The notes under the pieces: generated by a model
What the model was told of the DNA's origin: nothing
Database searches by the model: none
The model's input: only the letters and a program-made list of their open reading frames with translations
Translations under genes and position numbers: made by a program
Assembly: GCA_949287925.1 (NCBI GenBank)
Contig: CASEIR010000015.1
Span: 1-41,947, forward strand
Source: an uncultured Lachnospiraceae bacterium
Lineage (GTDB): Bacteria; Bacillota; Clostridia; Lachnospirales; Lachnospiraceae
DNA: 41,947 nt
Direction: 5' to 3'
In this document: piece by piece, positions 27,837-41,289 of the stretch
Layout of the letters: each line of letters starts with the position of its first letter
Position numbering within the stretch: the stretch's first letter is position 1

Positions 27837-29582
27837 TTATGACAGTCTTCCATGATCCATTTCATATACCCTGTCTGCCAGATTCATGGTTGACTTCCTG
27901 TGAGAGACCAATATCACCGTCTTATCCCCCTTGCCTTCTTTCAGCGATTTCAGGATAATGCCTTCGTTGAGGGAATCCAGATTGCTGGTGGGCTCATCCA
28001 ATAGAAGGAACGGAGCGTCATGCAGGAACGCCCTGGCAATCCCGATCCGCTGTCTCTCTCCTCCGGATAAGTTGTCTCCCAACTCACCAACTTCCGTATC
28101 ATACCCCTTCGGCAGCTTTATGATGAAGTCATGGATAGAAGCTTTTTTCGCGGCATCCATGATCTCCTCCCTGGAAGCTCCAGGTTTTCCTACAGCAATA
28201 TTATTGGCTATGGAGTCATGGAACAACACCGTTTCCTGCGTCACATAAGACTCCATTTCCCGCAGGTTTTCTGTATTGATTGCGCGTACGTCCCGACCGG
28301 ATATTCGGATCTGTCCACCCTGTACATCCCAGAACCGCATCATAAGCTTCAGCAGAGTGGATTTTCCAGAACCGCTGGCTCCATGGATACCGACCACTTT
28401 TCCTTTGGGGATATGAATCGAATAACCTTTCAGGATCTGCTCCTCTTCGTACGCAAAGTCCACATTGTCCGCCTGTGCATCGGAAAAAGAAACGTTTTCC
28501 GCTCCCGACACTTCCTCTACTTTTGGCTCTTCCTCCAGTAGGGAGAGCACCCGCTCCCCGCTGGCCAGGGTCTGATTCAGATTATTGGACAGGCTGGCAA
28601 GCGCCGTCACCGGTCCAAAGGAGCCCATCATGGCAGCCGTTCCGGTCAGCATGCCTGTCAGATCCACACTTCCCGCCTGCTTCAGCACGATCATAAGGGA
28701 CAGCGTGGCAAAGGAAAAGAGAAGAATGGTCAGATTCGTCACAGACCTTTGCCCGGCTTCCAGACGATTCAGATCTTTCTGTATGCCGGCCAACCGGTCC
28801 GAACGCTCCTCCATCTCTTTCCTGCGCTTCTCGCCCTGGCCGTACTGAATGGTCTCGTCCAGCCCCCGCAGGGAATCCAGGATAAAGCTGTTCAGGCTGC
28901 CGAATCCATTCCGGAACGCCATGCCCCTGCCGGCGCCCTGCTTTCCAAAGTACAGCGGAATCACCGCCCCTACTGTCAGATAGCCCGCCAGCGCCAGGAT
29001 CGCTGCCAGTGGTGAAATTCCACCGATAAACAGGAGCATCACAAAAGAGGTCAGCACCGCAATAGCGACCGGCGAGATCGTATGTGCGTAAAACACCTCC
29101 AGCAGTTCAATATCCGATGTAATGACCGATATCAGGTTTCCTTTGTCCCTCCCCTCCAGTTTCGCCGGACAGAGCTTTCGAAGAGCGGCAAACACCTGAT
29201 GCCGGATGATCGCCAGCAGTTTAAACGCAATGAAATGATTGCAGTACTGCTCTCCATAATGCAGGATTCCCCTCATTACCGCCATTACAATCAATATGAT
29301 GAACAGGGTCTGTGGTTCCATCCGAAGAAATAGTCCAGCACCGGAGGCAGACAGGCTGCCTCCCATCAGTTCTATAAGAGGCTCCAGCAGGATATGCATC
29401 AGACCGTATCCCGCAAGGATAGTAAGAAAGATCGCGCACAGGTATCCAAGGGTTCCAAGCACAATGGCAAGGGCCATGACCGGAAGGAGCGGCTTTACCA
29501 GTCCGATCAGCCTTCCCATGATACAGACCCCGCTGCGCCGGGAATTTCCGTTCTTTGTATCCAATGTCTTCTCTTCGTTCAT
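27837..29582 (-). CDS. ABC half-transporter, permease-ATPase fusion (CydC-like), partner B
   Basis: 581 residues: six membrane helices (about 25-310) followed by an ATPase. Walker A is GIHGASGSGKSTLLKLM (about 395-411), the signature is LSGGERQRIGIARAF, and Walker B is FLLLDEPTSNLDS. The membrane part resembles CydC-type exporters. Its start overlaps the stop of the preceding half-transporter (ATGA), so the two form a heterodimer. CydDC exports thiols and binds heme in E. coli. Here it is the last gene of the heme locus, so a role in heme or redox handling is inferred. It ends 48 bp before the broken 3D gene with no terminator between. Confidence 0.85.
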   Translation of the reverse strand: MNEEKTLDTKNGNSRRSGVCIMGRLIGLVKPLLPVMALAIVLGTLGYLCAIFLTILAGYGLMHILLEPLIELMGGSLSASGAGLFLRMEPQTLFIILIVMAVMRGILHYGEQYCNHFIAFKLLAIIRHQVFAALRKLCPAKLEGRDKGNLISVITSDIELLEVFYAHTISPVAIAVLTSFVMLLFIGGISPLAAILALAGYLTVGAVIPLYFGKQGAGRGMAFRNGFGSLNSFILDSLRGLDETIQYGQGEKRRKEMEERSDRLAGIQKDLNRLEAGQRSVTNLTILLFSFATLSLMIVLKQAGSVDLTGMLTGTAAMMGSFGPVTALASLSNNLNQTLASGERVLSLLEEEPKVEEVSGAENVSFSDAQADNVDFAYEEEQILKGYSIHIPKGKVVGIHGASGSGKSTLLKLMMRFWDVQGGQIRISGRDVRAINTENLREMESYVTQETVLFHDSIANNIAVGKPGASREEIMDAAKKASIHDFIIKLPKGYDTEVGELGDNLSGGERQRIGIARAFLHDAPFLLLDEPTSNLDSLNEGIILKSLKEGKGDKTVILVSHRKSTMNLADRVYEMDHGRLS

Positions 29583-31315
29583 ACTGCCGCCTCCTTTCCG
29601 TACTGCTCCAGTTCCATCTGCGACTGATAAAGTTTCTGATACTCTCCTTCCAGTTCCATCAGTTTTTCATGTGTTCCGGTTTCCACAACCCGTCCTTCCT
29701 TCATCATATAGATCCGGTCTGACTTCACTACGTTGGCAAGGCGGTGGGAAATCAGGATGATCGTCCTGGTCTTTGCCAGTTCATGGATCACATCCATGAT
29801 CATCTCTTCACTTTCCGCGTCAATATTGGAAGTCGCCTCATCAAAGATATAGACCGGCGTATCATGAAGGAGCGCCCGCGCGATGGCAAGCCGCTGACAC
29901 TGGCCGCCGGAAAGATTGCCGCCTTTCTCTGAAATGGGGGTTTCCAGCCCCTGCTGCGCCTGCAAAAATCCCCACAGATTCACTTTTTCCAGTGCTTCCT
30001 CCATCTCTTTCTTCCTGGCATCCGGTTTTCCCATGCGGAGATTCTCTTCCACCGATCCCTTAAACAGATAGCTGTTGTGGCTGACCAGGGTGATCTGATC
30101 CATCAGACTGCTTTCCTGTATATCGGATAATTCTTTCCCTTCGACCGTCACACTGCCGGTATAACCGTGATTCCTGCCCATAAGAATCCCTGCCGCCGTA
30201 CTCTTGCCGCACCCCGAACTTCCTACAATGGACGTGAAACTTCCTGCTGGGAACTCCAGGCTGACTCCTCTTAGGATTTCCCGCTCCCCTTCGTAAGAAA
30301 AATGTACGTCTGAAAACGCGATATCCATCTCCATATAGGAAAGCCATTCCGATTTTTCCTCCGGCTCCGGAAGATCCAGCAATGCAAAAATCTTATCACT
30401 GGCCGCCATGCCATTCATGGCAATATGAAAGAAGGAACCCAGCAGGCGCAACGGAATAAAGAATTCCGAAGCAAGCAGAATGAGCATCAGCGCTCCATGA
30501 ACACTCACATTTCCTTTCATAAACTGGGACAGCGTAACGATCATCCCCACTGCCGCACCGCCGTAGGCGATGATATCCATGACGCTGGTAGAATTCAGCT
30601 GCATGGTCAACACCTTCATGGTAATCTGGCGAAACTGCTGGGATTCCTCATCCATCTCCCGAGCCTTTTCTTCATCCGCCCGGTAGATTTTCAACGTAGT
30701 CAGTCCCTGCAGATTTTCCAGGAAGCTGTCCCCCAGTTCCGTGTAGATCACCCAGTATCTGTTCAGCAGTTTTTTCGCGATCTTCTGAACTGCTACAATG
30801 GAAACGGGAATCAGCGGCACACAGACGAGAAGCACAAGACTTGCCTGCCAGTTTACAAATACGAGGATGACGAACAGCGTCACCGGAGCCAACAGACTAT
30901 AAATAAGCTGGGCAAGATACTTTCCGAAATAGGTTTCCAGCTGTTCCACTCCTTCCGCCGCCATCTGGACAACTTCCGAAGTGGCAGTCTTTTCCCGGTA
31001 GGATGCCCCCAGCCGGAGCAGTTTCCTGTAAATCTTATCTCTCAGGATCCGTTTTACATCCACGCTGGCCTGGTAAGAGGCATAAGCCGCTTTTCTGTCA
31101 CAGTAAAAGCGCAGAAACAATGCCATGATAAGAAGCGGTCCGTAAAAAACCACTGTCTGAGTTGTCACTTCCCAGAACAAAGCCGTCTCCAGCAGTACCG
31201 ATACACTGTAGATCATCAGCACCTGGCAGAGCAGAGCAAGCCACTGCCAGACAACCTGATATAGGATATATTTCTTAGCATGGGACAATAATCCCACAAG
31301 ACGTTTTTTGATCAT
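29579..31315 (-). CDS. ABC half-transporter, permease-ATPase fusion (CydD-like), partner A
   Basis: 578 residues from ATG 31315, chosen because AAAGG lies 5 bases before it and it starts 2 bp after the YgbA-type gene; the frame extends 19 codons upstream into that gene. Six membrane helices (about 15-300) precede the ATPase. Walker A is SIVGSSGCGKSTAAGIL, the signature is LSGGQCQRLAIARAL, and Walker B is VYIFDEATSNIDAESEE. It is the heterodimer partner of the next gene. The substrate is unknown; in the CydDC family it would be cysteine or glutathione, and in this locus heme-linked export or import is possible. Confidence 0.85.
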   Translation of the reverse strand: MIKKRLVGLLSHAKKYILYQVVWQWLALLCQVLMIYSVSVLLETALFWEVTTQTVVFYGPLLIMALFLRFYCDRKAAYASYQASVDVKRILRDKIYRKLLRLGASYREKTATSEVVQMAAEGVEQLETYFGKYLAQLIYSLLAPVTLFVILVFVNWQASLVLLVCVPLIPVSIVAVQKIAKKLLNRYWVIYTELGDSFLENLQGLTTLKIYRADEEKAREMDEESQQFRQITMKVLTMQLNSTSVMDIIAYGGAAVGMIVTLSQFMKGNVSVHGALMLILLASEFFIPLRLLGSFFHIAMNGMAASDKIFALLDLPEPEEKSEWLSYMEMDIAFSDVHFSYEGEREILRGVSLEFPAGSFTSIVGSSGCGKSTAAGILMGRNHGYTGSVTVEGKELSDIQESSLMDQITLVSHNSYLFKGSVEENLRMGKPDARKKEMEEALEKVNLWGFLQAQQGLETPISEKGGNLSGGQCQRLAIARALLHDTPVYIFDEATSNIDAESEEMIMDVIHELAKTRTIILISHRLANVVKSDRIYMMKEGRVVETGTHEKLMELEGEYQKLYQSQMELEQYGKEAAV

Positions 31316-31317
31316 AG

Positions 31318-31671
31318 TTACCTTTCTTCCTTTTGTTTTCTTTTTTCTTTCATGCTGCTGATAACATGCCATACTGCAAGGATGGGATGGAAAAATATGA
31401 TCCTCGGTCCGGAATACCGCATCACCTGCCGGATCTTCTCCCGCATTTCAGGTTTATAGCAATGAACCCTGCAGTTGCTGCAAAAGGTTTTTTTCTCCAT
31501 AAAGGGACATTTTTCGCTTCTCAGCTTTGCATAATCTGCCAGTTCCCGGCAGGCATGACACAATCGTCCCGTCTTCCGGTCAAATCCCTTATGATTCTTC
31601 CTGCAGTACAGATGGATCATTTCATCCACCACATACTGTTCTCTCTTTCTCTTCCATTCTATATCTGCCAT
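31318..31671 (-). CDS. YgbA-type protein (nitrous oxide-stimulated promoter family)
   Basis: About 117 residues, soluble, rich in Cys and basic residues: YCRKNHKGFDRK, LCHACRELADYA, KCPFMEKKTFCSNCRVHCYK. The pattern of paired Cys and the sequence RVHCYKPEMREKIRQVMRY with GPRMIFFHP-type region (SGPRIIFFHPILAVWH) match the YgbA_NO family. In enteric bacteria the homologue is linked to nitric oxide stress recovery. The Cys groups suggest a metal or Fe-S site. It begins at the DUF454 stop. Its role with a heme system is unknown, but iron or NO metabolism would fit. The first codon may be GTG 31674. Confidence 0.75.
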   Translation of the reverse strand: MADIEWKRKREQYVVDEMIHLYCRKNHKGFDRKTGRLCHACRELADYAKLRSEKCPFMEKKTFCSNCRVHCYKPEMREKIRQVMRYSGPRIIFFHPILAVWHVISSMKEKRKQKEER

Positions 31672-31674
31672 CAC

Positions 31675-32085
31675 TCATACCGCATCCTGTTCCAGGATTT
31701 GTCCCGGCTGTATCGTCTTCACCCGCAGGAAGAAATACAGCAGATGGCATACCCACACAACAGCCAGACAGATCCTGCCAGCCGGCACCTGACTCATCAT
31801 GACAAATCCAATTGCCATCACAACAGTCACTGTTCCTACAATTCGCAACTTCGTCCCGATGGTCATTGCCCGCTGCTTCACAAAACTGTCCAGATGCTTT
31901 CTATAGAGTTTTGTACTGATAAACCAGTTATGAAGTTTCTTTGAACTTTTTGCAAAGCAAAACACTGTCGCCATATAAAACGGAACAGTCGGAAGAATTG
32001 GAAGTACAATACCCACTGTCCCCAAACCCAGGCAAAGAAATCCCAAAATTATCCAAAAAATCCTGAGCGGATTCGCTTTTTTCAT
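31675..32085 (-). CDS. DUF454 (YbaN-like) membrane protein
   Basis: About 136 residues with an N-terminal pair of membrane helices, then a short amphipathic region and two more helices. The family signature is visible: [40 protein letters not shown] and the [18 protein letters not shown] stretch. Its function is not known. AGGAG is 9 bases before ATG 32085 and only 3 before ATG 32091, so the later start is preferred. It sits between the heme importer ATPase and the YgbA-type gene, and DUF454 genes often occur near heme uptake loci. Confidence 0.8.
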
Positions 32086-32170
32086 TTTCATTCACTCCTG
32101 TTTTTCATACTTTCCAGGCTCCGGAGAGTCCTGTTCCTTGAGATGTCTCCGGTCCTGTATACTCTGACTC

Positions 32171-32959
32171 TCACACAGTCAGTACAAATTTCTTTCCGTC
32201 TATCATGGTCACGCCAAGAGAGATTCCATACAGTTCCCGGATGCACTCCGAAGTAATGATCTCATCGGGAGTTCCTTCCGCCGCCACATGTCCGTCTTTC
32301 AACCCGATGATCCGATGGGAATAATGGATCGCCTGATTGATATCATGGAGTACCATAATGATCGTGATCCCGTATTCCTGATTGAGTTTTTTTACCAGCT
32401 CCAGGATTTCAATCTGATACCGGATATCCAGATAAGTCGTCGGCTCATCCAGAAACAATATCTTCGTGTTCTGTGCCAGTGCCATGGCGATCCAGACACG
32501 CTGTCTCTGTCCTCCTGAGAGACGGCTTACTTCCCGGTCACGGTACTTCTCCACATTGGTCACTTCCATGGCCCAGCTGATCAGATTTTCGTCCTCCTCA
32601 CTTTGACTCTGCATCATCTTCCTGTGAGGCGTCCTCCCAAAAGAGACCAGCCGTTCCACCGTGATATCGTCTGCCGAAGTATTGTATTGATGAACAATGG
32701 AAACCTTGCGGGCGAATTCTTTAAGAGCCAGATTCTGGATGTTTTTTCCGTGGAGAAAGATATTCCCTTTTCTCGGATAAAGATTTTTCGTCATCAGATT
32801 AAACAATGTAGATTTTCCGCACCCGTTTGCTCCCATGATCGTTGTGATCTTCCCTTCTTCGATCTTAAAAGAAGTATCTTTTAACACTTTGTTCTTTCCG
32901 TAGGAAAAAAACAGGTTCCTCACCTCCATGGCTGGCTTTTTGTTATCCTCATGCTGCAT
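32171..32959 (-). CDS. Heme/iron-complex ABC importer ATPase (FecE/HtsC type)
   Basis: 262 residues of the FecE/FhuC/BtuD importer class. Walker A is TIMGANGCGKSTLFNLM (about 39-55), the signature is LSGGQRQRVWIAMALAQ, and Walker B is KILFLDEPTTYLDIRYQ. The TYLDI motif with LD...H switch (VLHDINQAIHYSHRI) is typical of siderophore and heme importers. It overlaps the permease gene by 11 bases. It should drive uptake through the FecCD permease with the IsdE-like lipoprotein. Confidence 0.92.
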   Translation of the reverse strand: MQHEDNKKPAMEVRNLFFSYGKNKVLKDTSFKIEEGKITTIMGANGCGKSTLFNLMTKNLYPRKGNIFLHGKNIQNLALKEFARKVSIVHQYNTSADDITVERLVSFGRTPHRKMMQSQSEEDENLISWAMEVTNVEKYRDREVSRLSGGQRQRVWIAMALAQNTKILFLDEPTTYLDIRYQIEILELVKKLNQEYGITIIMVLHDINQAIHYSHRIIGLKDGHVAAEGTPDEIITSECIRELYGISLGVTMIDGKKFVLTV

Positions 32960-34085
32960 ATTTCTTCGACCTCCTCAACAGAATGATAAAGAACGGCCCT
33001 CCGATCACACTCATGATGATGGATGCGGATACCTCGTAGGGCGCCGCCACCGTCCTGCCGATGGTATCAGCCAGCAGAAAGGTAAAAGCTCCTGCCAGCA
33101 TGGAAAACGGGATCAGCGCCCGGTGATCGCTCCCTACCAGGATGCGCCCCATATGCGGTACGATCAGTCCAAGGAAACTGATGGCTCCCGCCACCGCCGT
33201 GGAGATACTGGCAAGGAGTACCGCGATCAGAGAGATCACAATCCGCATCAGATTCACATTTACGCCCAGTCCCCGCGCCGTCTTGTCCTCCAGCGACATC
33301 AGGTTGCACATCTTTGAAAACAGAATGGCAAGGATCAGGCCGATGATCACATACGGCAGAAGCGTCTGTACATCCTCCCACGTCTTTTGCGTAATATTCC
33401 CTTCCACGATGGAAGCCACACCCGAAGAGTTTCCTCCGGTCATGGAATTCAGTGCATCGGAAAGACCGGTGAACATGGCGCTTACCGCAACACCGGTAAG
33501 GATAATCCTTAAAGGACTCAAACCGCTCTTCCATGACAGGCTGTAAACCAGGAAAAATGCCAGTACACCGCCTGCAAATGCAAACAACGGGGTGAAATAA
33601 TACAGGGCCGGCAGAAATGCCGTGACCAGCACCGCCACAAAGCTTGCCCCGCTGGAGATGCCGATGATCCCGGGGTCAGCCAGCGGATTCTTCAGCACTG
33701 CTTGAAACAATACACCAGACACCGCCACTGCAGCTCCTGCAAACAGAGAGATGACGATCCTCGGAAACCGGAGGTCATAAATCGCCGCCACGTTCTCAAT
33801 ACGCTCGATAAACAGGCCCCGGAACAGCTCTGACGGCGACACCTTCAGGCTGCCGATGTTCACGGATGCAAAAATCAGCACCACCAGAAGGCCCATCATG
33901 ACCACAAAGGATACGGTAGCCCGTGCCGCCTTCTTCTTTTTCCGGGTCCGGTCCGACTTCTGTATTTCTCCTTGTTCTTCTGAAGTTTCCATCTCCCTGC
34001 TCTGTGTTTCGGGCAGGATTTTTTCACCCCCCTTTTCTGCCTCCGTAAGGGGATTGTCCTGTAAACGGTTCTTTTCATCAGCCAT
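32949..34085 (-). CDS. Heme/iron-complex ABC importer permease (FecCD/HtsB type)
   Basis: 378 residues. Nine to ten membrane helices start after residue about 60, with the FecCD hallmarks FPRIVISLFAGAAVAVSGVL, NPLADPGIIGISSGASF and the coupling-helix segment GLIVPHMGRILVGSDHRALI. The first 60 residues are an unusual highly charged cytoplasmic extension (LTEAEKGGEKILPETQSREM and a K-rich patch before helix 1) not normal for this family. Only one permease gene is present, so it presumably forms a homodimer. It lies 13 bp after the lipoprotein gene. Confidence 0.92.
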   Translation of the reverse strand: MADEKNRLQDNPLTEAEKGGEKILPETQSREMETSEEQGEIQKSDRTRKKKKAARATVSFVVMMGLLVVLIFASVNIGSLKVSPSELFRGLFIERIENVAAIYDLRFPRIVISLFAGAAVAVSGVLFQAVLKNPLADPGIIGISSGASFVAVLVTAFLPALYYFTPLFAFAGGVLAFFLVYSLSWKSGLSPLRIILTGVAVSAMFTGLSDALNSMTGGNSSGVASIVEGNITQKTWEDVQTLLPYVIIGLILAILFSKMCNLMSLEDKTARGLGVNVNLMRIVISLIAVLLASISTAVAGAISFLGLIVPHMGRILVGSDHRALIPFSMLAGAFTFLLADTIGRTVAAPYEVSASIIMSVIGGPFFIILLRRSKKYAA

Positions 34086-34098
34086 ATCATCATCCTCC

Positions 34099-35223
34099 TT
34101 ACTTTGTAATCTCCTGCAGGGTTTCCTCGTCTACTTTCTCGCTGGCTTCGCTCTCTTCAGCCGCCTGTGCGGCATTCTCACTGTTCTCCTTTGCCTTGGC
34201 TTCGTCTTCCTCGTTCTCCGGATAGAGTATGGGCTGCAGTTCCTCCAGAGCCTCCGGATAACGGAAGGTGGCGCTCATACCGAACAATTCATAGGAAAGG
34301 TAGTAGACCTTGTCATTCTGCACCGCCTCAAAATGCTGCCAGATATCATTGGTCTCAAAGTCTTCCTGAAACATCTCCGTTACCTGATCCGGCAGAGCAT
34401 GGGCCGCGCAAAGGATAATGTCCGGCTCCTTCGTCTTCATATCTTCTGTATTGACAGTCAGAAATTCCTGGTCTGTCCCGGCATAGACATTCTCTCCGCC
34501 TGCCAGTTCCACCAGACTTCCTACATAGGAATTTTCCGTCGCTATGATATAGCTTCCGGGAAGTCCCATCAGGATCAGAACCTTCGGGCTCTCTTTTCCT
34601 TCATTTTTTGTGCTGTACTCTTCATAGAATTCCGTAAATTCATCCACCAGTTCCTGCGCCTCTTCTTCTCTGCCGAAGATCTCACCCAATTCCTGAATAG
34701 ACCGGTACATGCCCGGCACGCTCCTTAAGTTCAAAAACGCCCAGTCCGTATCGATGGCCTCATACTTTGGCTGCAGGTCTGACTGAAGGCTTGCCGGACT
34801 TAAGATCCAATCAGGATCAAGGGATGCCACGATCTCCATATCTGGAGCCATGGATGTACCCACCTGTTCCACTTCTGCATATCGCTCCGGTATGGTAGAA
34901 ACGGTGCTGGAGCATACCCCGACCAGTTCCAGTTCCAGACGGTCACAGATATCTGCCGTTGCAGGAGAGGTGGCAATAATCCTTGGTTCTTCCTCCATCG
35001 CTGCAACCTTCGCTTTCGCCGCTTCGACTGCTGCTTTCTCTTTCGGATCAGTGATCTCCAGGAGCGTCTCCGCACTCTGGGCAGTTCCCTCTGCAGTGCT
35101 TTCCGTATCGGCAGAGCCGCCCTTCTGATCCACGCAGCCTGCAAGAAGTCCGCAGGACAGGGCCATGCACAGGGCAATCCCAGTCAGTCTTCTCTTCTGT
35201 TCAGTTATCCTAATCTTCATCAT
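34099..35223 (-). CDS. isdE: Heme-binding lipoprotein of the ABC importer (IsdE/HtsA type)
   Basis: 374 residues from ATG 35223 (GGAGG 8 bases upstream inside the Shp gene). The lipobox is SCGLLAGC with the lipid Cys near residue 30. The mature protein is a helical-backbone binding protein. The heme-ligand motif VGTSMAPDMEI places Met125 and the AHALPDQV motif places His275, 150 residues apart, nearly the Met78/His229 spacing I recall for S. aureus IsdE. The closing FGMSATFRYPEALEEL is also typical. It has an extra acidic and Ala-rich tail of about 35 residues beyond the fold, which is unusual. It should receive heme from the Shp-like protein and give it to the FecCD permease. Confidence 0.88.
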   Translation of the reverse strand: MMKIRITEQKRRLTGIALCMALSCGLLAGCVDQKGGSADTESTAEGTAQSAETLLEITDPKEKAAVEAAKAKVAAMEEEPRIIATSPATADICDRLELELVGVCSSTVSTIPERYAEVEQVGTSMAPDMEIVASLDPDWILSPASLQSDLQPKYEAIDTDWAFLNLRSVPGMYRSIQELGEIFGREEEAQELVDEFTEFYEEYSTKNEGKESPKVLILMGLPGSYIIATENSYVGSLVELAGGENVYAGTDQEFLTVNTEDMKTKEPDIILCAAHALPDQVTEMFQEDFETNDIWQHFEAVQNDKVYYLSYELFGMSATFRYPEALEELQPILYPENEEDEAKAKENSENAAQAAEESEASEKVDEETLQEITK

Positions 35224-36187
35224 CGTCATATCCTCCGCCCCAGCGTTTCCAGTTCTTCCGGAAGAAATACACGATTACCGCCGCAACACCCATGAGGATC
35301 AGCCCGGATATGGTGACTGCCGCTCCTACGGCAAAAGCATTGTTCCCGCCGGATATCCCGGATTCCTCCTCTTCCGGTGTTTCTTCCGCTGTGGAAAGAC
35401 TCAGTCCCTGAGCGTCATTAAGTTCCGAATCTGTCGCTGTATCTGTAGACGGCTCCGCCGCCTCATCAATAGAACTGGACAGCGTTGGCGTCTCGCTCGC
35501 ATCCGTCGTCTCATCGCCGTCAGAAGCAGAAAGGAAAGACCCGCTCTGCAGAGAAGATCCGGAACCTGTGGAGCTTCCGGATGAACTGCTCCCCGATGAG
35601 CTGCTCCCGCCTGATGAACTTCCGGAAGCTGCCGTAACGATCGTGGCCGTCATATCTGTATTATTTCCTGTTGTATAATCGCTTGGGTACAGGTAAAAGA
35701 TCACATTTCTTCCCATAGGCTGCACATACATGGAGCCACGCACCACACAGTTTTCACTTGGCACCTGCATGCAGATATCCGCTGTAGTTCCATTACTGTC
35801 TGTCCCATTTCCTGTCACCCCGATGGCCGGGCTGGACCACCCGGAATCTTCCACATTCTGTACCCAGAAACTGTGGTTTGATGTATAATCCATCAGGCTC
35901 ATGCGGATCGTCAGATAGTATTCCCCGCTGTCCGTCAGTTCCAGGATTCCTGTCGTGTAAACAGCCCCATCTACCATTCCCTGCCCTGTCGTATAGGAGG
36001 CTTCCCCGCCGGAATCCTCGATCACCCCGGTCACCGGATGCGCATAGCAGGGATGGATCACACAGGTATATACACTGCCGCTTGCCGCCTGTACCGACGC
36101 CGCACTCATGCCTGCCCCCATAACAGCAAGCACAAAAACCGCCAGCAGACCGGCTATGGTCTTTCTCATTCTCTTTACTGTATTCAT
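35210..36187 (-). CDS. shp: Shp-like surface heme-transfer protein
   Basis: 325 residues: signal peptide (about 1-35), an Shp-type heme domain (about 37-190), a Ser/Gly linker, an acidic region, a C-terminal membrane helix (about 280-310) and a basic plus acidic tail. The start of the domain, SVYTCVIHPCYAHPVTGVIE, and DSGGEASYTTGQGM are characteristic. Met71 and Met158 are spaced 87 residues, the same as the bis-Met heme ligands I recall for S. pyogenes Shp (Met66 and Met153). In streptococci Shp passes heme from Shr to HtsA. Here the lipoprotein gene overlaps its end, supporting the same hand-over. AGGAG is 6 bases before ATG 36187. Confidence 0.88.
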   Translation of the reverse strand: MNTVKRMRKTIAGLLAVFVLAVMGAGMSAASVQAASGSVYTCVIHPCYAHPVTGVIEDSGGEASYTTGQGMVDGAVYTTGILELTDSGEYYLTIRMSLMDYTSNHSFWVQNVEDSGWSSPAIGVTGNGTDSNGTTADICMQVPSENCVVRGSMYVQPMGRNVIFYLYPSDYTTGNNTDMTATIVTAASGSSSGGSSSSGSSSSGSSTGSGSSLQSGSFLSASDGDETTDASETPTLSSSIDEAAEPSTDTATDSELNDAQGLSLSTAEETPEEEESGISGGNNAFAVGAAVTISGLILMGVAAVIVYFFRKNWKRWGGGYDDDED

Positions 36188-36299: not shown

Positions 36300-38516
36300 T
36301 TAACTCCTCTTCTCGTCTTTTCTTACTGATCTTTTCTGCATTACGCCTGCCAGCACTGCCATGCATCCGATTGCCAGCAATGCGGCAAATCCGCCCATAT
36401 CCACAGAGGTATCATCTGTCTTGACACTGGATGTGGAGGAAAGGCCACTTCCACTCTTAAGCGAAGATGAACCAAGGCTGGAAGAACCAAGACTTGATGA
36501 GCCCAGACTGGAGCCACCAAGGCTGGAAGAGCCCAGTGTAGAGCCGCCCGTCAGACTGCTTCCGCCCGTCAGTCCGCTGCCTCCGGAACCAGCATCGTTA
36601 TTTCCCGGATCATCTTCATCTGTAAATACCGGATCATCTTCATCCGCCGTTTTTAACGTGGACCAGTCAAGCGCCAGATAGACTGACTGATCTCCCAATC
36701 CCTCGGAAATAGACTCCATCACCGGTACATAGACCTGCAGCGGGGCAAATCCATCTTCCAACGCCTCCGGAATCAGTTCAAACGTTACCAGCTCCGGATA
36801 ATCTGTGCCATATTCGTCACAGATCCGCTCTCCATTCCCATCCAGTTGATAGGATTCTACTTCTGCGTCGCGCAACTCTCCTTTGGGATAGCCGTACTGG
36901 TCTTTCGTATACCCTGTAAGGAAATAACGAAGTTCCCCGAGATATCCCAGTTTACCACTAATATTCATTCCTTTCATGTCCAGTGTGACAGAATAGACGC
37001 CGTCTTTTACTGTTAATTTGATTGTATGATGTATCGCATTGTCTGCCATAGAGAGCGTTGACTGATCCACTTTCACCATATTCCCCGTCACCGCATAAAT
37101 ACCGTCTTTCAGGTTATGGATATCCAATTCTGTATCCCCCGCCGGTTCTTCCGGATCCTTCTGGTCATCCGGATTTTCTTCGCCTCCCGTATCCTTCGAC
37201 GCATCGCTGTATGTAATGGTAAACGTAGTCGTACCCGTGTAATTCCCAGGCGCTGCCGCCGCCACATCCTTTCCCTTGATGGTTATATTTCCATTCAGTA
37301 CCGTTTCCGTCCCTGCATCTTTTGTTCTTACCGTCTCTGCATCTCCGGCCGTCTGCGTGCCGAAATCATTGGCAAAGGGAAGTTCATCCTTCCCGCTGTA
37401 CAATACGCCTCCGGCCTGGGCACTCACTGTAACCCTGTTTTCCAGATCATCAGCAGATACATGGATCTCATACGGCTGTATATTATCGACATCTGTCGCA
37501 AGTTTCCCCATGGAAAGAGAGGATGGAATCTGTATCATGCCGGACGGCTCTGATATCTGGTCAGCCACATGAGCCGTTACTTCCATGGACTGCTGCCCCT
37601 CTTCTGATGCGCCATATTTTGTCAGCGTATCCCAGTATATGGTCACGATCGTCTTTACGTTGAATTTCCCGTTTTCAAAATAAATTCCGTTGATCTCACC
37701 ATTTAATCCGCCCATGGCAGGCACATAGATACGGGTATTGTTGTAATAATACTGGCTCAGACCAGTAAGCGGAAAGGTTACGTCCGTCACAACCGTATAA
37801 TCTCCCCGGTCTTCTGTCTTATATGTTACGCCTTCCATCGAAAGTGCATTTCCCGGGTCATTATTTATGTAATATCCGTTAAATCCGAGGATATACATTG
37901 GCTCCTGTTCCGTTCCGGAAACCATAGTGTAAGACAGGCTCATCTCTCCCTCGTCACTGACCGTCAGCCTTGCCTTCGTCGTCTCAGTCTGTACCAGACT
38001 GTGGTCTACCACATCGCTGCGCACCGCCGCCGTTACGTCATATACTCCCGATTCCGGCAGTTTCTCCGGAACATCTCCCCCGGACTCTTCTGCCAGTTCA
38101 AGCCCCAGCGCATCTGCAACAGCTTCTTTGATGCCATTTGAGGAATACGTTGCGCTTGTCACAGCATCCACGTCTCCGATTCCATCCGCATCGTCATCTT
38201 CCAGTCCCAGAAATTTCTCTACAATACCGTCAATGGCCGTCTGAAGTTTTCCTTTATTCACCTCTGCGTATGTTCCGCCAAAATTACCGCCTGTGATCTC
38301 CACACCTGAGATCCTTCCATCAATAACAGTTACTTCCGCATTGATATCATACTCTCCGAATTGATCGATATGATAAGTACCGTTTTTTTTGTATGAATCG
38401 CTCTGTGCCCCGGATGGCGCCGCAGCCGCTTCCTGTGCCGCCCCCATCACCGGCAGCGCCAGCAGACCTGCCAGGGCTAGCACCGCCCACCTCTTCCTGC
38501 TTCTTTTTTTTCCCAT
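36300..38516 (-). CDS. Surface heme receptor-like protein: FMN-binding-like domain plus two NEAT-like domains
   Basis: 738 residues from ATG 38516 (GGAGGG 4 bases upstream). Order: signal peptide (about 1-32); FMN_bind-like domain (about 42-138) with DGRISGVEI and the flavin-attachment-like motif DAVTSATYSS (117-126, Thr123 as possible FMN acceptor); NEAT-like domain 1 (about 155-305, ending YVPAM then YWDTLTK); a beta domain shared with the neighbouring secreted protein (about 311-440); NEAT-like domain 2 (about 467-625, YLGELRYFLTG, ending YVPVM and DWSTLK); a Ser/Gly linker of 5-residue repeats; a membrane helix (about 708-726) with a basic tail. There is no LPXTG motif; SVKTDD near 698 resembles a degraded K-T-G-D type sorting signal. 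Heme binding is inferred from the domains and the locus. Confidence 0.78.
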   Translation of the reverse strand: MGKKRSRKRWAVLALAGLLALPVMGAAQEAAAAPSGAQSDSYKKNGTYHIDQFGEYDINAEVTVIDGRISGVEITGGNFGGTYAEVNKGKLQTAIDGIVEKFLGLEDDDADGIGDVDAVTSATYSSNGIKEAVADALGLELAEESGGDVPEKLPESGVYDVTAAVRSDVVDHSLVQTETTKARLTVSDEGEMSLSYTMVSGTEQEPMYILGFNGYYINNDPGNALSMEGVTYKTEDRGDYTVVTDVTFPLTGLSQYYYNNTRIYVPAMGGLNGEINGIYFENGKFNVKTIVTIYWDTLTKYGASEEGQQSMEVTAHVADQISEPSGMIQIPSSLSMGKLATDVDNIQPYEIHVSADDLENRVTVSAQAGGVLYSGKDELPFANDFGTQTAGDAETVRTKDAGTETVLNGNITIKGKDVAAAAPGNYTGTTTFTITYSDASKDTGGEENPDDQKDPEEPAGDTELDIHNLKDGIYAVTGNMVKVDQSTLSMADNAIHHTIKLTVKDGVYSVTLDMKGMNISGKLGYLGELRYFLTGYTKDQYGYPKGELRDAEVESYQLDGNGERICDEYGTDYPELVTFELIPEALEDGFAPLQVYVPVMESISEGLGDQSVYLALDWSTLKTADEDDPVFTDEDDPGNNDAGSGGSGLTGGSSLTGGSTLGSSSLGGSSLGSSSLGSSSLGSSSLKSGSGLSSTSSVKTDDTSVDMGGFAALLAIGCMAVLAGVMQKRSVRKDEKRS
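36472..36546 (-). repeat. 15-bp tandem repeats encoding the LGSSS linker
   Basis: Five 15-bp units (starting at 36472, 36487, 36502, 36517 and 36532) vary around CCAAGGCTGGAAGAA and encode SSLGS repeats in the wall-spanning linker. The unit length is a multiple of three, so copy-number changes would keep the frame. Confidence 0.75.
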
Positions 38517-38545
38517 AATGCCCTCCGTCAAAACTGTCATCTCTT

Positions 38546-38606: not shown

Positions 38607-39557
38607 TTAATCTGCCGCATATGAAATCGTAAATGTTGTTGTTCCTGTGTAGTTTCCGGCTGCGGCTGCCGCTACGTTCTCTGCGGTTACTGTAAGCTGT
38701 CCGCTTAATTTCGTACCATTTGCATCTTTTGTCACGTCCTGACTTCCGAAGCTATTCGTAAAAGCAAGAGTGTTATCACCGCTTGTCAGAGTACCGCTTT
38801 CCGGCGTAGAAATGGTCAATGTACCATTCAGATTTTCAGCTGTAACATCTACCGAATAGTCTGACACATTAGCCTTCTCTGCACTTAGAGTTCCCATTGC
38901 CACAGATTCAGGCACCGTTACCGTATACTCCGGTTCAGAAACCGCTTCTGCCACATCCGCGGTGATCTCCATATCCTGTGTATTCTGTGTGTCACCTCCC
39001 GGATTCTGAGCGCCTCCGGCAGTCTGCAGATCTGTAACCTGCACAAAGAAATTCTGCGTACTGTTCATAACTACATTCACATAAGCGCTTACCGGCACCG
39101 TGCCTGCTTCCAGATCATTCAGAACATCCCGGGGAAGTTCTACCGTAAGCACCTGCGTCGTCAGAGAATCTTCTGCATTGATACCAAACAACGCCGCAGT
39201 TGTATCAAACACTTTTTCCGGTTTTGTTGTAATATCAGACTCTACCCGATACTCCGTTTCCCCTACCGTAAACACTACATCCTTTACCGTTCCGTCTGTT
39301 CCCTGATCCGGGTACGCCGGAATCGGATAAGCCACATAGAATGTAAGCTCAGCGTTCTCAGCTGTCAGCTCGATGTCCGCCTCATGTGCAAAGATCGGAT
39401 CACACATACTCTTATTTCCGCTACCGTTGGCATTCAGGAAATGGATCTCTCCAGTGTAACTGCCATCGGCCGGCTCTGCCGCGAATGCGGTTCCGCACAT
39501 CATCGTGGTCATCATGGCCGCCGCAACAGCGCCGGATAAAATTTTTCTGAATCTCAT
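38607..39557 (-). CDS. Secreted NEAT-like heme-binding protein
   Basis: 316 residues. Signal peptide MRFRKILSGAVAAAMMTTMM to about 26 (CGTAFA). Residues about 28-185 look like a NEAT-type domain (DGSYTGEIHFLNANGSG, SMCDPIFAHEADIEL, AELTFYVAYPIPAY) with candidate Met ligands in KSMCDPIF and VVMNSTQNFF. A Pro/Gly linker precedes a beta domain (about 192-316) homologous to residues 311-440 of the next protein, as shown by AAGNYTGTTTFTISY against APGNYTGTTTFTITY. There is no membrane anchor, so it is either free, a hemophore, or held by its beta domain. GGAGA precedes the ATG. The NEAT assignment is moderate. Confidence 0.65.
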   Translation of the reverse strand: MRFRKILSGAVAAAMMTTMMCGTAFAAEPADGSYTGEIHFLNANGSGNKSMCDPIFAHEADIELTAENAELTFYVAYPIPAYPDQGTDGTVKDVVFTVGETEYRVESDITTKPEKVFDTTAALFGINAEDSLTTQVLTVELPRDVLNDLEAGTVPVSAYVNVVMNSTQNFFVQVTDLQTAGGAQNPGGDTQNTQDMEITADVAEAVSEPEYTVTVPESVAMGTLSAEKANVSDYSVDVTAENLNGTLTISTPESGTLTSGDNTLAFTNSFGSQDVTKDANGTKLSGQLTVTAENVAAAAAGNYTGTTTFTISYAAD

Positions 39558-39645: not shown

Positions 39646-40122
39646 TCACTTTACCGTAAGTGTGCAATTAACTTCTGCACCGTTGCGCGGCGTCATCTCA
39701 TCGTCCATTGCAAACGTCTCATACCGTATGGTAAGCGGGTACTCGCCGGCTTCCATTTCCCTCTCCAGGGCAATCTCGTAGAGACTCTGGCCGGGTTTGA
39801 TCATTTTGGATGTATAGATGATCTCGTCCGTCTCCGGAAGGTAAAAAGAAATCTGGAAATAAACCTGATTTTCTTCCGGGTTGGTCAGTTCTACAGACAC
39901 ATCTTTTGTATCTGCCGGGATTTCAACAGACTTATATCCCGGGATTTGGATTCCTTCCCCTACAGAAGACGCCTGACTTTCATCCTCGGGTTTTTTCTGG
40001 TCTTCCTCAAACTCCACATCGTAATTGGTCACTTCTTTTGGTCTGGTATAGAACCAGGCGGCTACAGCTACGATTATGAGAACTGCAATGACTGATAAGA
40101 TAATTTTTTTCTTCCTGTTCAT
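39646..40122 (-). CDS. Small membrane-anchored protein of the heme locus, function unknown
   Basis: 158 residues: one N-terminal membrane helix (KKIILSVIAVLIIVAVAAWF, about 5-24), a charged linker, then a beta-sandwich domain (about 55-158; GYKSVEIPADTKDVSVELTN, EMEAGEYPLTIRYETFAM). Similar small proteins occur beside surface-protein genes in Lachnospiraceae. The fold looks like a binding or assembly module on the cell surface. GGAGAG precedes ATG 40122. It is the first gene after the operator-bearing region at 40140-40168. Confidence 0.65.
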   Translation of the reverse strand: MNRKKKIILSVIAVLIIVAVAAWFYTRPKEVTNYDVEFEEDQKKPEDESQASSVGEGIQIPGYKSVEIPADTKDVSVELTNPEENQVYFQISFYLPETDEIIYTSKMIKPGQSLYEIALEREMEAGEYPLTIRYETFAMDDEMTPRNGAEVNCTLTVK

Positions 40123-40139: not shown

Positions 40140-40168
40140 ACTATAGTTTGTCTCGTCTAACCGTCGGT
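40140..40168 (-). promoter_or_regulatory. Operator-bearing promoter-like site B of the heme locus
   Basis: Minus strand: -35 position ACCGAC (40168-40163), 17-bp spacer GGTTAGACGAGACAAAC, -10 TATAGT (40145-40140). The spacer matches 15 of 17 bases of the spacer of site A (41267-41283). The predicted start would leave almost no leader before the ribosome binding site, so it may act more as an operator or roadblock than as a strong promoter. Confidence 0.6.
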
Positions 40169-40207: not shown

Positions 40208-40220
40208 ATATATGCGAGAA

Positions 40221-40234
40221 TTAGTTGTAACTAA
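40221..40234. promoter_or_regulatory. Palindrome TTAGTTGTAACTAA (site C)
   Basis: Perfect 6-bp arms with a 2-bp centre, related in its GTTAG half-sites to sites A and B. It resembles half-sites of DtxR/IdeR-type iron regulators, but no consensus promoter is found around it. Confidence 0.4.
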
Positions 40235-40293
40235 CTGCAAAAATGATATCACAGCCTGTTGCCTCTGTCAATTTCCTCAAATGAGATTATTTC

Positions 40294-41097
40294 TCATTTT
40301 TCAACCTGTCCCTGCATTTGCTGTACATCCATACACACCGCATGTACAGCAAATCTTTTGCCGTATCCATTTCCGGTACATGTGGAAAGCGTCATTACTT
40401 TATGGCTGCTGTCCGGTCTGATTCCAGTATCGATCAAAGAATCCTTTCTCAGATTGTCAATAAATTTCTGATACTCTTCCCCCGGCTCATATCCGATCTT
40501 ATATACATATCCGCCATTTACTGCCTCCTGGCAGGCAAAAACCTGATATCTGTACACCATATCTTCTGTATACAGGGTAAAATACTGGTTTTCCTCCCAA
40601 AAAGCCTGATTCCTGTACTGGTCCAGATTGCCAAACATGCTCCCGTCATTCATGTTATGTCCATACAGGATGTTGTAACAGTCGCTGAAATCCGGGCTGT
40701 TCAGTCCTTCCAGAAAAATACTTCCGGCGATGTGGGATTCGCCATAGAAATCACTTCTCAAATACTTTTCATTGTCTCCGGAATAAAGAACCGGATAATC
40801 AATCCCCAGATCCTGGGTATTGTCAAAACGGATCCATGCTGCAATATCTTCATTCTGTTTATGCAGTTCTTCAAAGTTAACGAAGACATCCGTCAGCCAC
40901 CAGTCTTTCTTTTTTTCTTTCTCATTCTCTCCAGATTCTTCCAGGTAATTTTCCCTCAGTTCTTCGTAAGTCTTTGCTGATTCTGCTTTGTCCAGATAAT
41001 CCGGCAGAATATTGACCAATGCCACAACAATAAGAATCACTCCGGTGATCACAGGCAGAAGCCAGCGACAGTTTCTTACTTTTCTTTTATTCCTCAT
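40294..41097 (-). CDS. srtB: Class B sortase
   Basis: 267 residues. One N-terminal membrane helix (about 13-32), then the catalytic domain with His147 (ILYGHNMNDGSMFG), Cys240 (VMTLSTC) and Arg248 (GYGKRFAVHAVC), the class B triad. It ends VQQMQGQVEK. SrtB anchors heme-uptake proteins in staphylococci and Listeria. Here it leads the heme locus and probably anchors the NEAT or Shp-like proteins through non-LPXTG signals, though no clear sorting motif is seen. Translation may be coupled to the small ORF just upstream (stop 8 bp before ATG 41097). The ribosome binding site AGGAAAG is 11 bases away. Confidence 0.9.
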   Translation of the reverse strand: MRNKRKVRNCRWLLPVITGVILIVVALVNILPDYLDKAESAKTYEELRENYLEESGENEKEKKKDWWLTDVFVNFEELHKQNEDIAAWIRFDNTQDLGIDYPVLYSGDNEKYLRSDFYGESHIAGSIFLEGLNSPDFSDCYNILYGHNMNDGSMFGNLDQYRNQAFWEENQYFTLYTEDMVYRYQVFACQEAVNGGYVYKIGYEPGEEYQKFIDNLRKDSLIDTGIRPDSSHKVMTLSTCTGNGYGKRFAVHAVCMDVQQMQGQVEK

Positions 41098-41260: not shown

Positions 41261-41289
41261 ATTATAGTTAGTCTCTTCTAACCCGTCAA
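41261..41289 (-). promoter_or_regulatory. Promoter and operator site A of the heme locus
   Basis: Minus strand: TTGACG (41289-41284), 17-bp spacer, TATAAT (41266-41261). The spacer contains the perfect inverted repeat GTTAG-N6-CTAAC (GTTAGAAGAGACTAAC). A repressor on this site would block RNA polymerase directly. The leader to the small ORF is about 50 bases. Confidence 0.8.

Follow-up and report, generated by a model that had tools for sequence, protein, structure and literature searches.

The predicted heme-uptake locus and its composite receptor

The window analysed here, i.e., the whole stretch of 41,947 nucleotides from an uncultured Lachnospiraceae bacterium (contig CASEIR010000015.1), carries on its reverse strand a gene for a probable surface receptor in which an FMN_bind domain is joined to NEAT-type heme domains. 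The Shr-type receptor, Shp, a heme lipoprotein, a permease, and an ATPase all occur together in the window, with the genes of the last four following directly downstream of the receptor, and those of a small protein, a sortase, and a probable NEAT-like protein lying upstream of it. As read from the sequence, this locus is a heme-uptake operon of the Shr/Shp/Hts type, the receptor of which has gained a flavin-type domain. The features are as follows, with receptor residues counted from position 38540:

36303-38516 (-): Shr-like surface receptor (738 aa, counted from the start at 38516), composed of FMN_bind, NEAT1, beta, and NEAT2 domains
38097-38378 (-): FMN_bind domain, residues 55-148 (PF04205, E 6.6e-9)
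38139-38168 (-): flavinylation-site motif DAVTSATYSS, residues 125-134, in which TSAT replaces SGAT
37623-38072 (-): NEAT1-like domain, residues 157-306, by predicted fold
37206-37592 (-): beta domain, residues 317-445, homologous to the C-terminal domain of the 38610-39557 protein
36654-37118 (-): NEAT2 of the Shr-NEAT2 type, residues 475-629 (PF05031 and 9w5y)
36303-36599 (-): Ser/Gly-rich stalk, SVKTDD sorting-like signal (by eye and recall), hydrophobic segment, and basic tail
35213-36187 (-): Shp heme-binding protein (PF11545, E 1.7e-59; 2q7a, E 3e-42), both Met ligand positions kept
34102-35229 (-): heme lipoprotein of the IsdE/HtsA type (TIGR03659, E 2.9e-118; 2q8p), Met and His ligand positions kept
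32952-34085 (-): FecCD permease (PF01032, E 7.9e-90)
32174-32959 (-): ABC ATPase (PF00005, E 8.1e-34)
38610-39557 (-): probable NEAT-like secreted protein with a beta domain (best fold match 4myp, E 2.5e-4, on a poor model)
39649-40122 (-): small protein with an N-terminal hydrophobic segment (by eye), whose homologs come first after the paired palindromes at six loci
40297-41097 (-): class B sortase, srtB (TIGR03064, E 5.9e-52)

The open reading frame of the receptor spans positions 36300-38540 (-; 746 aa). The start at 38516 adopted by the initial annotation is the better one, given that a GGAGGG motif stands four bases ahead of that ATG and the homologous frames of two other loci (L030 and L031) begin likewise. 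The proposed order of an FMN_bind domain, a NEAT-like domain, a beta domain, and a second NEAT-like domain was also borne out, by PF04205, PF05031, and the solved structure 9w5y, and by the fold in the case of NEAT1. Both Pfam matches exceed their cut-offs: PF04205 covers residues 65-145 with 36.7 bits (cut-off 22), and PF05031 covers residues 476-525 at E 2.9e-8 with 34.6 bits (cut-off 32.8), a match which spans only positions 2-51 of 119. The FMN_bind domain also matches a purpose-built FMN profile at E 2.9e-47, this profile having been built partly from the receptor's own sequence.

NEAT1 is not matched by any Pfam model at E up to 1, and a search of solved sequences gave no NEAT for it, an unrelated phosphatase at E 0.32 being the only match. 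An AlphaFold2 model of the FMN_bind and NEAT1 region (pLDDT 83.4) has NEAT and Shp structures (3sz6, 3sik, and 2q7a) as its top Foldseek matches, with 3sz6 at E 8.7e-4, the sole match below 0.001, and 3sik at a TM-score of 0.69 by target length, and it is by this model only that NEAT1 is assigned a NEAT fold. No FMN_bind structure stands among the best 50 fold matches, and solved FMN domains are matched weakly by the sequence profile (8p2a, E 0.0085; 8p2b, 0.076; 3o6u, 0.54), so that the FMN assignment rests on Pfam. A chance FMN_bind call was ruled out, as PF04205 lies above its cut-off and ten genomes have the FMN_bind-NEAT1 arrangement along the whole profile.

The surface location claimed by the initial annotation is supported as probable, based on a signal peptide and a C-terminal KTGD-like signal with a hydrophobic segment, both judged by eye, and on the class B sortase gene nearby.

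Recurrence of the fusion and the predicted heme relay

A profile of 252 positions covering FMN_bind and NEAT1 was searched against 397 genomes of the host family at E 0.001. Matches were found in 82 of them; among the matches listed, seven cover all positions and the others are partial, mostly confined to the FMN half. The intact fusion is present in ten genomes (the window genome, L030, L031 = G375, L032, L033 = G284, L034, G030, G372, G023, and G029), and its named carriers are Candidatus Mediterraneibacter tabaqchaliae, Drancourtella massiliensis, Lachnospiraceae bacterium UBA1818, Candidatus Scatomonas pullistercoris, and Candidatus Blautia merdipullorum. The profile had no match in the two same-genus genomes examined (G001 and G002). 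A scan at the class level (391 genomes, 1e-12) gave four matches, i.e., two already counted, G615, and G482. G615, from another family, has an FMN_bind-NEAT1 gene with an internal stop (L161, 8443-10479) and the motif SSAT, a further Gly-to-Ser case, and G482 has a partial 1114-aa frame at a contig end (L162, 1-3342) with, in this order, NEAT1, an FMN_bind domain (SGAT), and a stretch matching both NEAT and Shp models. A different composition is found at L024, where a relative of the 38610-39557 protein, FMN_bind, and NEAT1 make up one protein, with the NEAT-like part N-terminal to FMN_bind and no NEAT2.

Shp is present in 26 of the 397 family genomes, including all seven which have a full-length fusion among the matches listed. 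The hypergeometric probability of this overlap is 2.2e-9, or 4.4e-8 with two same-genus genomes counted once, neither value correcting for kinship. In G030, G372, and G023, Shp lies on a separate contig from the fusion. For 18 of the 19 Shp genomes without the fusion, the loci were inspected (L026 and L111-L127; G139 excluded), and G129 was the only one in which the FMN profile found a match. In G129 (L130, 2194-10977), a subtilase/LRR protein of 2927 aa, whose FMN_bind domain has SGAT, ends approximately 8 kb from Shp and adjoins a protein with a Shr-like HID match, an arrangement that may represent a second way to place a flavin near heme uptake. A multi-flavin cluster was also observed in G027 (L028, 3578-12399), which comprises a protein with five FMN matches, a single-FMN protein, an ORF, and a large FMN_bind protein.

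The second NEAT domain matches the solved streptococcal Shr NEAT2 (9w5y) at E 7.6e-40. Shr NEAT2 is reported to hold heme through Met997 and Met1107 (PMC12796733, available part), and these fall on Met498 and Met608 of the receptor by chain counting in the 9w5y alignment. In the window and the fetched loci, 53 NEAT2-type stretches were collected, with the window counted twice; 14 lack one ligand column, and 38 of the 39 with both columns are Met/Met, the lone exception being Ala/Met. This suggests that NEAT ligation by a Met pair is widespread in the host family, beyond S. pyogenes, of which Met ligation is seemingly characteristic according to the available part of the same report (PMC12796733). 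In clostridial NEAT domains, a conserved Met and no YXXXY motif are described in the available part of a survey (PMC4143258). Both Shp ligand positions (Met and Met) and both IsdE positions (Met and His) are kept in the alignments. These are presumably Met66 and Met153 in Shp, and Met78 and His229 in IsdE. The ligands predicted from the sequence are thus Met/Met in NEAT2, Met/Met in Shp, and Met/His in IsdE. As neutral Met may hold either Fe(II) or Fe(III) heme, according to the authors of the structural work (PMC12796733, available part), the predicted relay is compatible with ferrous heme, which could travel along it; that it does so is what we infer.

The first NEAT domain differs, as it presents His180-Ser181-Leu182 where Shr NEAT2 has Ser-Met, so the usual first Met is absent. 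His180, Ser181, Leu182, and Met276 are invariant in the nine aligned rows, and in the 11 matched rows (window counted twice) the His is found in ten, the Leu in 11, and the Met in ten. With such a site, a His/Met or open pocket, FMN_bind and NEAT1 might constitute a flavocytochrome assembled from scavenged heme, in which a covalent flavin would reduce every heme that arrives, and which would pass only ferrous heme to Shp and IsdE. This is improbable; if true, it would present a heme receptor whose cargo doubles as a redox cofactor.

Operator, possible iron control, and candidate electron source

Three copies of the palindrome GTTAG-N6-CTAAC precede the upstream genes of the locus:

41267-41282 (no strand): exact palindrome, overlapping a promoter-like site before srtB
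40220-40235 (no strand): palindrome with one mismatch, before 39649-40122
40146-40161 (no strand): palindrome with one mismatch, before 39649-40122

Three such palindromes occurred in none of 100 shuffles; promoter-like sites in the region were no commoner than in the shuffles. Pairs of boxes 58-64 bp apart are found upstream of the operon at L023, L024, L030, L032, L033, L034, and L066 (one of the two boxes having a mismatch at L024 and L033), and at L027 a single one-mismatch box stands ahead of the whole gene run. No palindrome was found at L031, where the contig starts close by, or at L161. The Shp loci unlinked to the fusion also present boxes, in G023 and G030, or one-mismatch versions, in G372.

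Counted per genome, with a reversed-pattern control in brackets, exact palindromes number four (one) in the window genome, ten (two) in G030, and four (zero) in G284. Of the remaining three exact sites of the window genome, one stands ahead of a Fur-family gene, one ahead of FeoA-FeoB, and one ahead of a DUF3793-flavodoxin pair. One site of G284 precedes FeoB, with others located ahead of an HMA protein and close to an ABC transporter; in G030, the three inspected of the six sites outside the heme loci have no clear iron-uptake gene. Given the presence of the same palindrome before FeoAB, Fur-family, and flavodoxin genes, the operator resembles that of an iron regulon, and the set of palindromes reads as an iron-starvation regulon, in which control by iron would be expected.

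This association raises the possibility of a surface ferric-iron reductase, in which the flavin would convert Fe(III) or ferric chelates to Fe(II) for the co-regulated FeoAB and the NEAT domains would bind heme independently. The palindrome before FeoA-FeoB in the window genome and before FeoB in G284 is consistent with such a role, and flavinylation has been tied to iron assimilation elsewhere (PMC8238504, available part). The fusion of the FMN domain to NEAT domains, together with the presence of Shp in seven of the seven sampled fusion genomes, argues against it, and the reading is considered unlikely.

With respect to the electron source, the window genome is 84% complete, which limits the negative results on partner genes. 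It encodes one ApbE (E 1.2e-91) and all six Rnf genes, this set ending approximately 0.9 kb from ApbE. The sole other FMN_bind match is RnfG, with no multi-flavin protein found, no Ferric_reduct protein found, and one Fer4_5 protein, which stands alone. Among the ten carriers searched, FMN_bind matches number two each in the window genome, G023, G284, G375, G422, and G424, and four to seven in the other four. By partial exclusion only, Rnf would be the leading electron donor, and the extracellular electron-transfer chain evoked by the initial annotation is weakened by this inventory.

The heme-loaded NEAT domains might also serve as a cytochrome of scavenged heme, conducting electrons delivered by the flavin to acceptors outside the cell. 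Heme with Met ligands is well suited to electron transfer. Surface-bound hemin is reported to support such transfer in Staphylococcus epidermidis (PMC12370626, available part). The complete uptake operon and the iron-regulon-like operator point instead to nutrition, and RnfG is, in this incomplete genome, the only other protein with an FMN_bind match, which makes a conduit very unlikely.

Other genes surround the operon. The model of the 38610-39557 protein has a pLDDT of 47.3 and the protein has no NEAT match in Pfam, its NEAT reading being based on one fold match of this poor model and on likeness by eye. A DUF454 protein (E 2.2e-36; 31678-32091, -) comes directly after the heme ATPase, with a look-alike ORF at L027 (2670-3128). 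Downstream of the heme operon is an ABC half-transporter pair most like CydC/CydD (27840-31372, -), both members falling under the curated cut-off; ORFs of similar size lie near heme genes in L026, L027, L032, and L033, a likeness of size between unaligned sequences. A short integrase fragment (PF00589; 26271-26750, -) is found approximately 1 kb from the transporter genes, and a metal-sensitive repressor (PF02583; 41316-41651, +), which we take to be of the CsoR type, is divergent from the sortase gene.

The putative flavinylation site, proposed heme reduction, and known systems

The flavinylation motif is described as D-x-x-[S/T]-G-A-[S/T], with the Gly needed (PMC12052999, available part). 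The receptor has DAVTSAT, in which the Gly is replaced by Ser, as the initial annotation had pointed out, so it departs from the full motif and retains the D, the S/T, the A, and the acceptor T (Thr131, or Thr123 counted from the start at 38516). All nine aligned rows keep the Asp and the acceptor Thr. The loci fetched by then gave 99 rows of the motif, counting duplicates, and the Gly is present in 92; the other seven comprise four TSAT (three copies of the window and one of L030) and three with Arg. The dN/dS of the FMN domain is 0.06-0.10 (window, L030, L031, and L032; five of six pairs computable, with dS near saturation), matching the low values of the NEAT domains, and these ratios indicate that the domain is maintained under purifying selection. 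Given the sequence TSAT here, as opposed to SGAT in six of the eight aligned homologs, the flavinylation of the window copy is uncertain; that of the SGAT homologs by ApbE is probable.

The reading that we tentatively prefer, with a confidence falling a little short of even, is that of a Shr-type receptor with an added FMN_bind domain which would reduce heme at the cell surface during import, together with Shp and the transporter of the IsdE/HtsA type. The receptor would probably be made under iron starvation; its FMN_bind domain, probably flavinylated by ApbE in the homologs with SGAT, would pass electrons supplied by RnfG or a diffusible carrier to ferric heme in the adjacent NEAT1, held by Met276 opposite either His180 or an open site; and the heme would next travel in the Fe(II) state from NEAT2 to Shp and on to IsdE through the uncharged Met/Met and Met/His ligands. 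This account draws on the observed domains, locus, conservation, aligned ligand positions, co-occurrence with Shp, regulon-like operator, and presence of ApbE and Rnf, to which it would add flavinylation, heme reduction, the electron donor, and iron control. We infer heme reduction as the most economical reading. The suggestion that a flavin-type domain stands beside heme domains is supported in the setting of a heme-uptake locus, and is strengthened by the conserved fusion, Shp, the operator, and predicted ligands that tolerate Fe(II). Given the heme relay encoded next to the receptor, the release of iron, which had also been suggested, is less likely than the passage of intact heme to Shp and IsdE.

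Several points weigh against this reading. Of the nine aligned rows, six have SGAT, the window and L030 have TSAT, and L031 has AGAT, to which the SSAT of the interrupted L161 copy may be added; a Gly-to-Ala change in another protein left approximately 50% of the flavinylation (PMC12052999, available part). ApbE is found in all 12 handles searched (ten distinct genomes) and in 108 of 120 family genomes, and its presence, being near-universal and thus uninformative, was discarded as support for flavinylation of the receptor. No electron-transfer partner gene was found among the window genes scanned, further partner families not having been searched. The window sortase has no homolog in the 15 other stretches searched, so a conserved sortase link fails. 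Finally, the matches listed include no full-length fusion for 19 of the 26 genomes with Shp, which makes the flavin an optional addition to heme uptake.

The altered motifs and the dispensability of the fusion would also suit a plain heme receptor, in which the FMN_bind domain of the window lineage would have lost its flavinylation and would act as a structural module or one that binds proteins. This is rather doubtful, considering the invariant acceptor Thr, the low dN/dS of the FMN domain, and the SGAT of most of the other homologs.

If heme is indeed reduced, the receptor would bear on how anaerobic Gram-positives manage the redox state of the heme that they take up, a process for which no reductant is named in the available part of the structural report (PMC12796733). 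The receptor-fused flavin domain, present in several gut bacteria, is a candidate for this reductant, and would connect nutrition by heme with the flavinylation of proteins. In literature searches that were not exhaustive, no paper was found that joins an FMN_bind or FMN-binding domain with a NEAT domain, none that unites a heme reductase, the Gram-positive cell surface, and flavin, and, by title or abstract, no pairing of flavinylation with a NEAT receptor, with both terms occurring once each in PMC11220614 and PMC10225247.

Among the closest known systems is the Shr/Shp/HtsABC system of S. pyogenes. The receptor shares with it a homologous NEAT2 with both Met positions and partners of the Shp and HtsA/IsdE lipoprotein types, and differs from its Shr in a sortase-like C-terminus (by eye), a different NEAT1, and the hemoglobin-interacting domain PF07550, for which the receptor has no match at E up to 1. 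To our knowledge, the Shr of S. pyogenes has no FMN_bind domain. In that species, methemoglobin gives up its heme to Shr, and Shp passes the heme on to HtsA (PMC3359286, available part).

The ApbE-flavinylated extracytosolic FMN_bind proteins, such as RnfG and the multi-flavinylated surface proteins, likewise have PF04205 with the site Asp, Ala, and acceptor Thr, whereas the receptor has only one such domain, joined to NEAT domains of the heme type, and the motif Gly replaced. The NEAT fold, IsdE, the FecCD permease, and the class B sortase are shared with what we take to be the composition of the Isd systems of Staphylococcus aureus and Bacillus anthracis. The Met positions of the NEAT domains in the window contrast with the tyrosinate ligands of the Isd NEATs (PMC12796733, available part). 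The initial annotation knew of no described system with this domain order, a statement now to be qualified, as FMN is listed among the additional features of NEAT proteins in the legend of a supplementary table of Honsa et al. 2014 (PMC4143258, available part). What that legend records is NEAT proteins with an FMN feature; what the window adds, as judged from its sequence, is a set of Shr/Shp/Hts genes whose receptor bears a flavin-type domain.

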